In this document: piece by piece, positions 1-26,176 of the stretch | Position numbering within the stretch: the first letter of the stretch is position 1 | How the letters are laid out: every line of letters starts with the position of its first letter | Assembly (NCBI GenBank): GCA_007694025.1 | Contig: RECL01000129.1 | Location: forward strand, 1 to 34,869 | Direction: 5' to 3' | DNA length: 34,869 nucleotides | DNA from: Spirochaetaceae bacterium | Lineage (GTDB): Bacteria; Spirochaetota; Spirochaetia; DSM-27196; SLST01 | Translations under genes and position numbers: made by a program | The notes under the pieces: model-generated | Database searches by the model: none | Seen by the model: only the letters and a program-made list of their open reading frames with translations | Told to the model about the DNA's origin: nothing

Positions 1-2590
1 GCAGGTCGGAGAGCGTCGCGATCTCGTAGTGGCTCGTCTCAACGCTTCGATCGCGATCGATTCTGATCAGCCCACCACGGGATCGCGTACCGGAGGGCTG
101 TGCCTCTCGTTCGGAGTCGGGAGACGAGTCGGTCTGTGCCGCGGCGTCACCGGGGCCGTCGATAGCGTCGGCCGATTCGCCATTGTCAGCGATCTCGAGC
201 GCGTCGATGTTGGTCGTGAAATCGGGCTGCTGCAGCGCGCGCGGCACCCGCACGACAGTTCCCTTCCCGAACGAGAAAAAACCCGCCCCAAACGTCGTAG
301 ACGGCCGAGTGAGCTCCGAAAGCTCCTCGGCCTCGTCGAGCTCACCGAGCTCCTCAGCGTCATCGAGCTCACCAAGCTCCTCGGCCTCATCGAGCTCACC
401 AAGCTCCTCGGCCTCGTCGAGCGCGTCCGTCGCTTGGCGCGTGTTGTCGTCCGCCGCGGCGATTCGGTCTACCCGAACGAGCTTTTCGCCCTGCGCGTCG
501 CCACCACCGGCCAGCCACTCGAGCTCGGTCAGTTCGTCGAGCGCATCTATCGACACGTTAGTCGGCAGACGCACCTCGCGCGCGGCTGTTACCGGGGCAA
601 CCGCTCCATCGGCGGAATCTTCGGTGTCGGGCTCATCGACCTCGTCGTCGACCTCCTCCGCCAACCGGTCATCCGTCCAGTCGTCGACGGGCGACGCTCC
701 GTCCTCTTCGAGCCCGGCAAGCTCCTCGGCACCGTCGGCGTCCTCGAGCTCAGCGACTTCGACAGCCTCACCCAGGTCGTCCGCATCCTCGAGTTCGCCG
801 GCATCTGCCACCTCATCGAGGCCGGCGTCCTCAAGCTCGTCGGCGCCGTCGGCGTCTTCGAGCTCGACGACTTCGATAGCCTCACCCAGGTCGTCCGCCA
901 CCTCGAGCTCGTCGGCATCGTCCACCTCCTCGAGGTCGGCGTCCTCGAGCTCGTCGGCGCCGTCGGCGTCTTCGAACTCGACGACTTCGATAGCCTCACC
1001 CAGGTCGTCCGCCACCTCGAGCTCGTCGGCATCGTCCACCTCCTCGAGGTCGGCGTCCTCGAGCTCGTCGGCATCGTCGACGTCTTCGAGCTCGGCATCA
1101 TCGAGCTCCTCGATGTCGTCGACGTCATCGTCGATCTCTTCGACCTCTACGGGACCGGACATCGCGGGCGCGGTGGGAACCGCTGCGGAGGGGGTAGGAT
1201 GCTCCGCACGCGGTGCCGACGGAGCGATCTGCGCTATCGAAGCCGTCGAAAGGCGCCGACTCAGCTGGTCGATGATCTCCTCGATTCGGTCGACATCGAT
1301 CGACGATGCCGGTCGATCGCCCGCGCGATGGCTGAGCACGTCGATGATCTCGTCCCAACTCTGGTCGATCAGCGCATCGACCTGCTGCGATTTGTCCGCT
1401 CGGATGTGCCCGATTCCCCGTCGGATCTGCTTACTGACTTCGTCGCGCCTATCCGCAAGTTCAACTTTCCAGCGTTGGAAGTCCAGGTCATCCTTACGCT
1501 CCATGAACTCCCGAAGCAGATTGATCTGAAAGCGCTTCACCCGATCCGATAGCACCACGACCGGATCCTGTCGAATGTTCAGGAAGAGGAAGATCAACAG
1601 AAAGGTGGTCAGAAACACCGCGCCGACGAGCGTGTACTGCAGCGCAACCGGCATCGTAAGCGATGCCGCCGGCTCCGCGTACACGTACGGCCCGTGAAAG
1701 CTCGAGTCGACCGTGAACACCTCGTACGCGAACGATGGTCTTCCGTCGGCTTCGTCGGAGACGATCGACGTCCGAACAGGACTCTGTCTGATTTGCGGCC
1801 ACGCGCCGACCACCGCCGCAGAAAAGGTGTCAGCGAGCGCCGAACGGACGTTGACGACCACGCCGCCCGACTCGAGCAACCGTAGCTCCTCACCGGTCCC
1901 GATCAATCCTCGTCGAATCAGCGTTGAACGCAGGTCGCGTAGATTCACGTAGAACAGCGCGGCGCCCTGAAGGACCCCATTCGCATTGACCGCCGGAAGC
2001 CGATAGACAAACTGGTGCGTCGGATAGCCGATCAGGACTTCGGGTTGTGGAAGCGACGCTCCCGACGGAAGCGCAGAGTCGGGCAATGCATCGAAGAAAG
2101 CCAGCGACTCGACCGGGAACGGTTCGGTTGACCGCTCGGACACTTGATCCGGCCTCAGATACGTTCTCTGCGTCGCAGTCTGCCGGAAATCCGCCGGATT
2201 CGAGCTGTAGTGCAGCTCGGATCCGTCGAGATTGATGATCCGAACCACATCGAGCGATGCCTGCTCGGACTTCATCGCATCGAGCCGCACCTGCCGTTCG
2301 CGCAAATCCGCCGCGGAGGCGTTCAGACGAAACGAGTTAGTAACCGCCTGGTCGAGCGTGAACTCCCGGTACCGGGCGATGTTCGTCCTGTGAAACGATT
2401 CGATCGCATCAGCCACCAACGCGGCACGAGCAGCGACGTTTTCCTCTACCCGAGGGACGTAGAACCGAGTCTCCAGGATCCGGAACCGGTCGACCGCAAC
2501 CAGAACCGCAAGTACGCTGAACACGACGACGGAGATGAGAAGACTGATGCTGAACTTCTGCGCACCGGTCATACGCGAGCCCGGCGCCAT
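1..2590 (-). CDS. Membrane-anchored sensor-like protein with a giant acidic tandem-repeat tail (3' end outside window)
   Basis: I read 863 open codons from an ATG at 2590 to the window edge. The N-terminus has a transmembrane segment at about residues 13-33, an extracytoplasmic region to about 318, and a second segment at about 319-338 rich in Leu/Phe. This TM-periplasmic-TM layout resembles sensors with a Cache/PDC-type input domain, but I see no kinase, cyclase, HAMP or chemotaxis signalling motif. Residues 339-480 look charged and helical. From about residue 480 the chain is overwhelmingly Asp, Glu, Ala, Leu and Val, with three 38-residue repeats near 505-618 and about four 9-residue repeats of the type LDEAEELGE near 723-756. 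The gene follows the rplQ terminator; a GATAAT hexamer at 2612-2617 may be its -10. Upstream ribosome binding is weak, and Met7 is an alternative start. The family is not recognised and the function is unknown. Confidence 0.8.
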   Translation of the reverse strand, partial: MAPGSRMTGAQKFSISLLISVVVFSVLAVLVAVDRFRILETRFYVPRVEENVAARAALVADAIESFHRTNIARYREFTLDQAVTNSFRLNASAADLRERQVRLDAMKSEQASLDVVRIINLDGSELHYSSNPADFRQTATQRTYLRPDQVSERSTEPFPVESLAFFDALPDSALPSGASLPQPEVLIGYPTHQFVYRLPAVNANGVLQGAALFYVNLRDLRSTLIRRGLIGTGEELRLLESGGVVVNVRSALADTFSAAVVGAWPQIRQSPVRTSIVSDEADGRPSFAYEVFTVDSSFHGPYVYAEPAASLTMPVALQYTLVGAVFLTTFLLIFLFLNIRQDPVVVLSDRVKRFQINLLREFMERKDDLDFQRWKVELADRRDEVSKQIRRGIGHIRADKSQQVDALIDQSWDEIIDVLSHRAGDRPASSIDVDRIEEIIDQLSRRLSTASIAQIAPSAPRAEHPTPSAAVPTAPAMSGPVEVEEIDDDVDDIEELDDAELEDVDDADELEDADLEEVDDADELEVADDLGEAIEVVEFEDADGADELEDADLEEVDDADELEVADDLGEAIEVVELEDADGADELEDAGLDEVADAGELEDADDLGEAVEVAELEDADGAEELAGLEEDGASPVDDWTDDRLAEEVDDEVDEPDTEDSADGAVAPVTAAREVRLPTNVSIDALDELTELEWLAGGGDAQGEKLVRVDRIAAADDNTRQATDALDEAEELGELDEAEELGELDDAEELGELDEAEELSELTRPSTTFGAGFFSFGKGTVVRVPRALQQPDFTTNIDALEIADNGESADAIDGPGDAAAQTDSSPDSEREAQPSGTRSRGGLIRIDRDRSVETSHYEIATLSDL
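323..424 (-). repeat. About four tandem 27-bp (9-codon) repeats
   Basis: A 27-bp unit recurs about four times and encodes LDEAEELGE-like nonapeptides on the minus strand. It sits in the same acidic tail as the 114-bp repeats and is separated from them by a less repetitive stretch of about 100 codons. Confidence 0.85.
736..1077 (-). repeat. Three tandem 114-bp (38-codon) repeats in the acidic tail
   Basis: Units begin at 736, 850 and 964 and are exactly 114 bp apart. The copies at 850 and 964 are nearly identical at DNA level; the one at 736 has diverged. In the minus reading frame each encodes an Asp/Glu-rich block containing the motif ADDLGEAIEVVE or close variants. The length is a multiple of three, so copy-number change would keep the frame. 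Confidence 0.9.
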
Positions 2591-2654
2591 GCGAGACGGT
2601 TCATCGATACGATTATCGGCATAGACGCGGCCGTCTGTGAGCCAACCACGCCCC

Positions 2655-2689
2655 CAAAGATAAGAAAGGCCTCGCCCGAAAGCGAGGCC
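2655..2689 (-). terminator. Intrinsic terminator after rplQ
   Basis: An 8-bp perfect GC-rich stem (2668-2675 with 2682-2689) around a 6-nt loop is followed on the minus strand by a T-rich tract, TTTCTTATCTTT. It lies 38 bp after the rplQ stop and marks the end of the ribosomal protein transcription unit. Confidence 0.9.
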
Positions 2690-22506: not shown

Positions 22507-22534
22507 AGTCGCTCCTTGGTAAACGCTGCGGGCT

Positions 22535-25500
22535 CTAGAAATTGCTTCCCTGGCGGTTGATGAGTTCCTCATCGCGCTCGGTCAGCGGGATCTGTTTTCC
22601 CTTTCCGTCCCAGATCGAAATGTCGAGCGCAAGCCCCCGCAGTTCCTGCACAAGGACGTTGAAACTCTCGGGAACCCCGGCGGTTGTCGACGGCTCTCCC
22701 TTGACGATACTCTCGTAGATCTTTGCTCGCCCGTTCATGTCGTCGCTCTTGATTGTCAGGAGCTCCTGCAGCGTATTCGCGGCGCCGTACGCCTCGAGCG
22801 CCCAGACCTCCATCTCACCGAGTCGCTGACCGCCAAACTGGGCCTTACCGCCAAGCGGCTGCTGCGTCACGAGCGAGTACGGGCCCGTCGAACGGGCGTG
22901 CATCTTGTCATCGACCAAGTGGTGCAGCTTCAGGATATACATGTAGCCGACCATGACCTCGTTCTCGAACGGTTCGCCGGTGCGACCGTCGTGGAGAACC
23001 GTCTTCGACGATCCGGGCAGACCCGCCTGGGCAAGCTTGTCGGCGATCTGTTCGTTGGACGCCGACTCGAAGACGGGCGTCGCATACCACTCGTCGAGCG
23101 CGGCTGCGGCCCACCCGAGCTCGCTCTCAAGGATCTGGCCCAGGTTCATTCGGCTCGGGACGCCGAGCGGGTTCAGACACAGTTCGAGTGGCGTGCCGTC
23201 GGCCATGAACGGCATGTCCTCTTCGGCGAGTACGCGAGCGATGACTCCCTTGTTCCCGTGACGGCCGGCCATCTTGTCGCCCTCGCGCAGCTTGCGCTTC
23301 GTCGCGACCAGGACTTTGACGATCTCATCGACACCGGGCGACAGGTCGTCGCCTTCGCTGCGCTTCAGCCGCTGCACGTCGATGACGGTGCCATCGACGC
23401 CGTGAGGAATCTTCAACGAGGTGTCGCGCACCTCCTTGGCCTTCTCTCCGAAGATCGAGTTGAGCAGCTTGAACTCGGGCGTCGTCTCGGTCTCGCTCTT
23501 CGGCGTGACCTTGCCGACGAGGATGTCGCCGCTGCCGACCTTCGCACCGACCTGCACGATCCCCTCTTCGTCGAGGTGATCGAGCGCCTTCTCCGCGGTG
23601 TTCGGGATGTCGCGGGTGATCTTCTCCGGTCCGAGCTTGGTCTCCCGGACCTCAACCGCGAACTCCTTGATGTGGATACTCGTAAACAAATCGTCCTTCA
23701 CGAGCTTCTCGGAGATCAGGATCGCGTCTTCGAAGTTGTACCCGTTCCACGGCACGAACCCGACGAGCACGTTGCGGCCGAGTGCCAGCTCGCCCTGATG
23801 CGTCGCGGGTCCGTCGGCGAGCACGTCGCCGGCCTTCACCTTCTGGCCAAGGCTCACGATCGGCTTCTGGATGAAGCAGGTGTCCTGGTTCGTCCGCTGA
23901 TACTTGACCAGATCGTAGACGTCGACGTCGTTCGCGTTCTTCGCGTCGGCCGGCTTCACCCGGATCGCGCGCGAGGTGACGTGGACGATCTCACCGGCGC
24001 GGCGCGCCTTGACGAGCACGCCCGAATCGTAGGCGCACTTCGCCTCCATGCCGGTCCCGACGCGCGGCGGCTCGGGGAAGACGAGCGGGACGGCCTGCCG
24101 CTGCATGTTGCTGCCCATCAGCGCACGGTTGGCGTCATCGTGCTCAAGGAACGGGATCAGAGCGGCCGACACGCTGATGACCTGCTTCGGCGAAACGTCC
24201 ATGTACTGGATCTGTTCGGCCGGCTTCGCGGTGTAGTCGCCGCTCTTGCGGACGGCGACCAGCGGGGTCATGAACGCGCCGGTCTTCATGTCGAGCTGTG
24301 CGTTCGCCTGCGCGATGAAGTACTTCTCTTCGTCCATCGCAGACAGGTACTCGATCTGCGATGTTGCCTTGCCGTCGATGACCTTGCGGTACGGAGTCTC
24401 CAGGAACCCGTAGTCGTTGACCTGCGTGTAGTTCGCCAGGCTCACGATGAGCCCGATATTCGGACCTTCCGGGGTCTCGATCGGACACATCCGGCCGTAG
24501 TGCGTGTAGTGTACGTCGCGCACTTCGAAGCCCGCGCGGTCGCGCGACAGCCCCCCCGGTCCGAGCGCGTTCAGCCGCCGCTTGTGCGTGAGCTCCGACA
24601 GCGGGTTGACCTGGTCCATGAACTGCGACAGCTGCGACGAACCGAAGAACTCTTTGATCGCCGCGACGACCGGTTTGATCGACACCAGATCCTGCGGCTT
24701 GATCGTGTCGGTCTCCTTGAGGCTCATCCGCTCCTTGGCGATGCGCTCCATCCGACTGAACGCGGTCTTCAGTGCGTTCGACAGAAGCTCTCCGACGCTG
24801 CGGATCCGCCGGTTTCCCAGGTGGTCGATATCGTCAACGTTCGCCTCTCCGATGTAGACCTTGATCAGGAACGCCATGGTATTGACGATGTCTTCGCGGG
24901 TCAGCAGGTGGCTTTCCACCGGCTCGTCGTAGTCGAACTTCTTGTTCAGCTTGTAGCGGCCGACTCGACCGAGGTCGTAGCGGCGCGGCGTGAAGAACAT
25001 GCTGTTGAAGTCCTTCTCTGCGCTTTCGATCGTGATCGGCTCGCCGGGCAGGAGGATAGAATAGACGGCCGACAGCGCATCCTCGTAGCTCGGCTCGTCA
25101 ACGTCCTGGTCATCGCGCGTGAACTTGCTCTCTTCGCGCTCAAAGCAGTTGAGGATGACCTCGGAGTGGAGGCTCGTCGGATCGGCCATGTCGATGACTT
25201 CCAGTTCGCGGACACCAGAGTGGAACAGATCATCGATATCGTGCGGGTGAATCTTCTCCCCCGCCTTGTAGAGCTTGCGGGTGGTTTCACCGCCATCGGA
25301 GCTCGCCTCTGTTATATAGACCGCCCGAGCGAGCACCTGACCGTTGAGCGCCTCCATAGCGTCGCGCTGATCGCTCACCGGCATCGTCGTGCGGCGGTAG
25401 AACACATCGATGATCTTTTCGCGCGTGTCGAAGCCGAGCGCCCGAAGGAAGAGCGTACCGAGGATTCGCTTCTTGCGGTCGATCTTCGCGTAGATCAGTT

Positions 25501-26053
25501 CCTTCTTCTGGTCGATCTCGAACTCCAGCCAGCTCCCGCGATACGGGATGATCCGCGAACTGTAGATGCCCTTCTCATGAGAGAAGATCACCCCGGGCGA
25601 CCGATGGATCTGGCTGACAACGACACGCTCGGCACCGTTAATGATGAAGGTGCCGCGCTCGGTCATCAGCGGTATATCGCCCATGTAGATGTCTTTCTGG
25701 CGGATTTCACCGGTTTCCAGGAACACGAGGTTTATGCGCGCCTTGATCGGGATCGCGTACGTGAGACCCTTCTGCTTGCACTCGGCCTCGGTCAACTTGA
25801 TGTTCTCTTCGTCGAGCACGTAGTGGTCGTACTCGAGCCGCATGTCTCCGTTCTGACTTTCGATCGGGAAGACGGCCTGGAACACCTCTTCGAGCCCCTG
25901 CTCGTTGATCGGCTCGCCACGAAGCATCGTCTCGCGCTGGAGGAATCGCTCGAACGAGGCGATCTGGATTCCGACCAGATCCGGAAGGTCCATGACCTCG
26001 GTCGATCTCTGACCGACCTTGACGCGGTTGATGACCGTAGTCCGATCAAGCAT
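22535..26053 (-). CDS. rpoB: DNA-directed RNA polymerase beta subunit
   Basis: This 1172-residue subunit, with beta', forms the active site and the rifampicin pocket. The rifampicin region begins [20 protein letters not shown], followed by [11 protein letters not shown]. Asn495 replaces the Ser equivalent to E. coli Ser531, the change reported for naturally rifampicin-tolerant spirochaetes. The [11 protein letters not shown] block and the C-terminal [15 protein letters not shown] are intact. I chose ATG 26053, with AGGAGG upstream and the start [15 protein letters not shown]; an upstream open extension is non-conserved. It is preceded by a 200-bp structured spacer. Confidence 0.98.
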
Positions 26054-26068
26054 ACTTCCTCCTGGTAC

Positions 26069-26089
26069 CGGTGTGCGCCGCGCACACCG
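26069..26089 (-). promoter_or_regulatory. Hairpin just upstream of the rpoB ribosome site
   Basis: Perfect 8-bp arms (26069-26076 and 26082-26089) enclose a 5-nt loop. The hairpin ends five bases before AGGAGG of rpoB, a position that could affect initiation. Confidence 0.5.
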
Positions 26090-26176
26090 TGATGCGACCG
26101 GTCGCCCTGACCCGTCGCGCGCGACTCGAAACCACGGGCAGGAAGTCGATTCCGACCCGGGGAATAGAGACAACTA

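Follow-up and report, generated by a model that had tools for sequence, protein, structure and literature searches.

Membrane-bound sensors of bacteria normally end in a kinase, cyclase or methyl-accepting domain, which raises the question of what is done by a spirochaete membrane protein, encoded next to the ribosomal protein gene rplQ, whose cytoplasmic part instead includes a long stretch rich in aspartate and glutamate. The window analysed here, a stretch of 34,869 nucleotides, is an entire contig (G000:C25) of a Spirochaetaceae genome in 449 contigs, and the gene lies at its very edge.

The reading frame and the contig end

On the minus strand of the window, an open frame of 863 codons starts with the ATG at position 2590 and runs off the contig edge. 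Since 80 relatives all share the methionine of residue 7 (position 2572), this is probably the true translation start, and the CDS of this dCache/acidic-linker protein was placed at 2..2572 (−), with the ATG at 2590 as alternative and the 3' end cut by the contig edge. The preliminary description had considered that the frame might be lost on extension, and this did not occur in relatives: the two N-terminal parts available from the same genus are 55% identical to the window protein, and complete relatives of the rplQ-linked type have open frames of 846–1360 residues, with one split gene as the exception. An assembly or frame artefact was ruled out by the same architecture in dozens of genomes.

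The rest of the C-terminus was sought on the other contigs of the source genome and was not found. The last readable residues, YEIATLSDL (2..28, −), align with ADYEIATIADVL of a same-genus relative (L033/L034), just before its C-terminal module, so the source copy breaks off just ahead of what would be its most informative segment, and both the C-terminal module and the GAF domain described below are absent from the readable sequence as the contig stops first. A 516-aa open frame on the plus strand (2–1552), antisense to the acidic tail, most probably follows from the codon pattern of the many D and E residues there.

A double-Cache sensor domain without a classical output

The protein had been described from its sequence as membrane sensor-like, with two hydrophobic segments and no recognisable output domain, and all three statements were borne out. 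Kyte-Doolittle peaks were found at residues 9–40 and 314–348, in agreement with the helices predicted by an AlphaFold model of residues 1–440 made with 80 relatives (mean pLDDT 86.7), in which transmembrane helices at residues 9–38 (2477..2566, −) and 315–339 (1574..1648, −) enclose a folded domain at residues 46–311 (1658..2455, −). In the model, this extracytoplasmic domain consists of a long N-terminal helix followed by two Cache/PAS-like folds in tandem, and a Foldseek search of the PDB placed the ligand-binding dCache domains of TlpC and vpHK1S-Z8 first among solved structures (E ~1.5e-5, probability 1.00), with further fold matches to the domains of Tlp3 and Mlp24. The search against Cache families that had been proposed gave Pfam dCache_1 in 10/80 relatives (best 7.6e-8) and no dCache_1 match in the window protein itself, and searching the PDB by sequence with the sensor part returned nothing. 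By its predicted fold and its transmembrane – double Cache – transmembrane topology the protein is a dCache receptor, as are the chemoreceptors, sensor kinases and cyclases of the dCache_1 family.

The second helix is followed by a cytoplasmic juxtamembrane domain (residues 343–425; 1316..1564, −) of four predicted helices, which has the best-conserved sequence of the family, with the signature LRQDxVVxSERxKRFQ...KSWDEI. No HAMP, MCP or kinase family of Pfam was matched in the N-terminal 440 aa of the 80 relatives, juxtamembrane domain included, and HATPase, HisKA, GGDEF, EAL, MCPsignal and cyclase output domains were found neither in the window protein nor in the full-length relatives scanned. 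As the domains that define these classes were looked for and not found, its domain content places the protein outside the MCPs, sensor kinases and cyclases; unlike the dCache_1-family receptors, which share its topology and fold, it has a private helical domain, an acidic linker and an end module in the place of MCP, kinase, GGDEF, EAL or HAMP domains.

In relatives the acidic stretch leads to a conserved end module

The acidic tail is real, exceptional within the window and no chance effect, with a net charge of −0.40 per residue over 300 aa, versus −0.10 for the ORF of the window that comes second in acidity. It was first reported to cover some 380 or more residues, which overstates its extent, as the acidity is concentrated in a core at residues ~485–660 (611..1138, −; a 114-bp or 38-aa repeat in 3.3 copies), where about half of the residues are D/E with 0–1 K/R per 60 aa, and in a second patch at residues ~724–757 (317..421, −; a 27-bp or 9-aa repeat in 3.8 copies). 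Residues 461–774 average 41% D/E, and residues 671–723 and 760–863 are far less acidic. Nor does the acidic stretch form the end of the protein, since in relatives it serves as the linker before a private module of ~37 residues with the pattern DGVxxI...LVDSVL, to which the window's branch adds a GAF-fold domain. The length of the linker ranges from roughly 114 to 620 aa among relatives at the stricter cut-off, with a wider spread at the looser one, and the arm is short in a T. pallidum-like homologue, but its net charge is always negative despite the varying length; we infer a disordered tether in which acidity and reach, not the exact sequence, are kept.

Bacterial SSB tails and FtsZ linkers also have a long variable acidic or disordered linker which ends in a short conserved module. 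This layout of linker plus tip may be compared with the arrangement seen here by analogy only, as there is no sequence relation and the arm in the present family hangs on a membrane sensor. Linker matches to ChePep and SclA were compositional and do not represent homology: with ChePep (NF041272), a glutamate-rich chemotaxis regulator, the likeness is confined to a Glu-rich repeat, and the match (E 1.8e-4 in L063) reached 20 of 650 bits, far under the family cut-off.

The end module was searched for in 17 genomes with an alignment (A8) made from extracted sequences. One convincing match was obtained in 14/17 genomes, always inside this gene, and weak matches alone in the other three; all further matches were short and near chance. 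The pattern was not recognised in 21 complete-looking relatives lacking the GAF domain (e.g. L081, L086, L095), and hence the module is common but not universal.

In the relatives of the rplQ type, the window's branch, the module is followed by a GAF-fold domain which ends the protein, whereas most Treponema-type relatives end with the module or close to it and lack this domain. The fold was recognised in a model of the relative L077, in which the C-terminal part is confidently predicted only for residues ~140–280 (top structural match E 3.5e-6, probability 1.00). Pfam gave no significant GAF family match for the domain in relatives, and searching the PDB by sequence with the C-terminus returned only chance-level sortases. 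The predicted domain thus has the fold of GAF domains such as the Leptospira-type Lcd1 GAF with cAMP (5w10), but differs from them in showing 13–14% identity only and in controlling no enzyme. A known signalling domain in the missing C-terminus had been named beforehand as the finding that would speak against an output-free protein. GAF being a known signalling (sensory) domain, this expectation came half true, in that relatives do carry such a domain there, but not an enzymatic output. In genome G015 (L053:6567–9075, −) two ORFs share the gene between them, one of 567 aa with sensor and linker and another of 262 aa with a GAF-like domain, which represents either gene fission or a frameshift.

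Distribution within the Spirochaetia and a possible partner

In a protein search, 46/61 near relatives were seen to have the gene, and a class-wide profile search recovered it in 190/392 genomes, in 161/315 of the good ones and in 91/134 of the sampled Spirochaetia genera, a few of these 91 only through weak matches. Five of the 190 matches were weak and four of these five were gone with a broader profile, and 185 genomes are therefore counted as gene-positive below. Scanning genome contigs with a single protein had found nothing, and a broad first alignment was too divergent for patterns, in contrast to a usable alignment of seven sequences. The gene usually occurs once per genome, and much of the class conserves this single-copy receptor, a T. 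pallidum-like genome included. Outside the class, three sampled genomes gave matches, all weak; one of them, G408, shows on visual inspection both the acidic repeats and an end that resembles GAF. In G420, likewise outside the class, a distant homologue (L171:6421–9553) has stretches of the acidic repeat that are masked or gapped, and its GAF-like end lies on a second ORF. No named Pfam or NCBIfam family matched over the full protein length, and searches of an open library for this gene in T. pallidum and for its rplQ-linked form in spirochaetes turned up no paper on it. The protein is a real and conserved spirochaete membrane protein, hitherto undescribed.

The order of its parts, the modelled sensor fold, the GAF fold predicted in relatives and the lack of a recognised output enzyme are established as far as sequence and structural models allow. 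A sensor, an acidic arm and a conserved end-piece together resemble a receptor holding a partner, rather than an enzyme. With somewhat better than even confidence, we interpret the protein as a non-enzymatic dCache-type receptor or tether of the inner membrane, with an acidic arm that holds out a docking module to a partner in the cytoplasm which belongs to the motile cell body; conservation of the juxtamembrane region and end module, with a linker of varying length, is consistent with this. The dCache domain would sense a ligand outside the inner membrane, and its binding would alter the juxtamembrane helices inside, which may in turn change the capture of the partner. The flexible arm would present the end module, alone or together with a GAF domain, to one cytoplasmic partner; the module would be the binding part, and the sensor would control that binding. 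If this tether reading is right, the protein would be a receptor whose output is neither enzymatic nor chemotactic, and it would offer a concrete candidate for what connects the envelope with the motile cell body of spirochaetes.

It is the distribution of the gene which suggests a partner in this motile cell body, be it in the flagella, in chemotaxis or in the filaments of CfpA. Several candidates for this role were tried in 80 chosen genomes, 38 with and 42 without the gene. Strong matches to FliG were present in 38/38 genomes with the gene vs 18/42 without, and CfpA, which was identified in a T. pallidum-like genome via NCBIfam NF040882, in 31/38 vs 3/42, both counts being uncorrected for phylogeny. 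Such patterns are leads and not proof, and any one specific partner has at most a small probability.

One of these leads is that the protein would anchor the CfpA cytoplasmic filaments to the membrane, its arm and end module binding the ribbon found under the inner membrane of Treponema and relatives, in a chiefly structural role. Cytoplasmic filaments run directly beneath the cytoplasmic membrane (PMC13398306), and the same paper cites tomography work on components that bridge and anchor (Izard 2004). Restricting the smaller sample to flagellated genomes left CfpA in 31/38 with the gene vs 2/18 without; several flagellated lineages lack the gene, which counts against the receptor/tether reading, and in the flagellated families without it in the sample (f14, f22, f26, f27 and f28) CfpA is absent too. 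Among the 392 genomes, gene and CfpA occurred together in 116, the gene alone in 69, CfpA alone in 16 and neither of them in 191, so that the gene is found in 116/132 CfpA-positive vs 69/260 CfpA-negative genomes, counts in which shared ancestry is uncorrected and which shared ancestry alone could yield. The association is strong, but it is broken both ways. Many of the 69 genomes with the gene and no CfpA match belong to genus g71, and CfpA-negative genomes, for example G220 and G330, retain the end module. Conversely, most genomes with CfpA only are fragmented assemblies, but among them three complete or nearly complete ones, G289, G361 and G381, have CfpA with no gene detected, also with the broader profile. 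We consider this anchor role unlikely as it stands. The source genome itself encodes CfpA, as a partial gene at a contig edge (G000:C422:3–893).

An accessory chemoreceptor, in which the dCache domain senses ligands and the cytoplasmic part feeds the chemotaxis arrays, would account for the best structural matches of the sensor, which are mostly ligand-binding domains of chemoreceptors, and for the presence of CheA in 37/38 genomes with the gene vs 17/42 without (80 genomes, shared ancestry uncorrected); an MCP gene is also the upstream neighbour in 7/47 loci away from rplQ. Against this, dCache domains are common to kinases, cyclases and chemoreceptors, neither an MCP signalling domain nor HAMP was present in any relative scanned, and G150 has the gene with no CheA match, which makes a chemoreceptor improbable. 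There is a rather slim chance that the receptor/tether favoured here represents a spirochaete-specific class of receptors that signal or anchor through a tethered bait. In it the dCache sensor would control, from the other side of the inner membrane, an acidic arm with a private end module gripping the filament or motility apparatus of the cell, and the protein would be the missing membrane link of the CfpA cytoplasmic filaments.

Genomic neighbourhood

Upstream of the gene lies rplQ, encoding ribosomal protein L17 (2728..3363, −). Between the two there is a terminator-like hairpin with a T-rich tail (2668..2689, −), and a promoter-like site upstream of the gene (CTCACA-18-GATAAT; 2612..2641, −) matches the consensus at 9 of 12 positions, a consensus match only. 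Comparable hairpins were present in 5/14 relatives checked (L034, L035, L054, L057 and L063). Orthologues beside rplQ, which the preliminary description had proposed to look for in other spirochaetes, were found in the window's order and several others, where the gene follows rplQ and is itself followed by rnhA-comM-htrA-uvrB or rny-ymdB-ftsJ. The suggested conservation of the place after the ribosomal operon therefore applies to many relatives and to the GAF branch, but not to most Treponema-type genomes, which carry the gene elsewhere, often beside hflX.

A ribosome- or translation-linked membrane protein, with the acidic arm binding ribosomes or basic ribosomal proteins, had been hinted at by this location. 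The strong acidity, the position after rplQ in many lineages and an upstream gene for HflX, a 50S-binding GTPase, in 29/47 non-rplQ loci are in line with such a link, which is nevertheless weak: hairpin and promoter-like site separate the gene from rplQ as what is probably a transcription unit of its own, most Treponema-type copies are located elsewhere, other lineages have neither rplQ nor hflX as neighbour, and roughly half of the sampled genomes lack the gene although every one of them has ribosomes, leaving this explanation very unlikely. That the arm serves by bulk charge, buffering cations or basic proteins with the remainder as anchor only, would explain why charge is kept while linker sequence and length drift, but is hardly credible with dCache, juxtamembrane and end modules all much better conserved than the arm, and with the arm short in the T. 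pallidum-like homologue.

With regard to other neighbours, an M23 peptidase gene is located downstream in 16/39 non-rplQ loci. An M15-type peptidase gene adjoins the gene in the T. pallidum-like genome, and in two Treponema-type genomes (L161:4333–7805 and L162:6284–9833) such a gene overlaps or abuts it, upstream in one and downstream in the other. In family f8 (L055, L058, L059, L061, L064, L144 and L146) the gene is found near murE-, yicC- or UPF0047-type genes rather than rplQ, and these copies keep the GAF domain where complete. RplQ of the window has a long C-terminal extension rich in Ala, Asp, Glu and Lys (211 aa in total), and the first-start ORFs of its relatives are about 122 to 215 aa long. 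Elsewhere in the window, positions 22523–26173 contain long open frames on both strands of the same stretch, of 1189 and 1212 codons from stop to stop.
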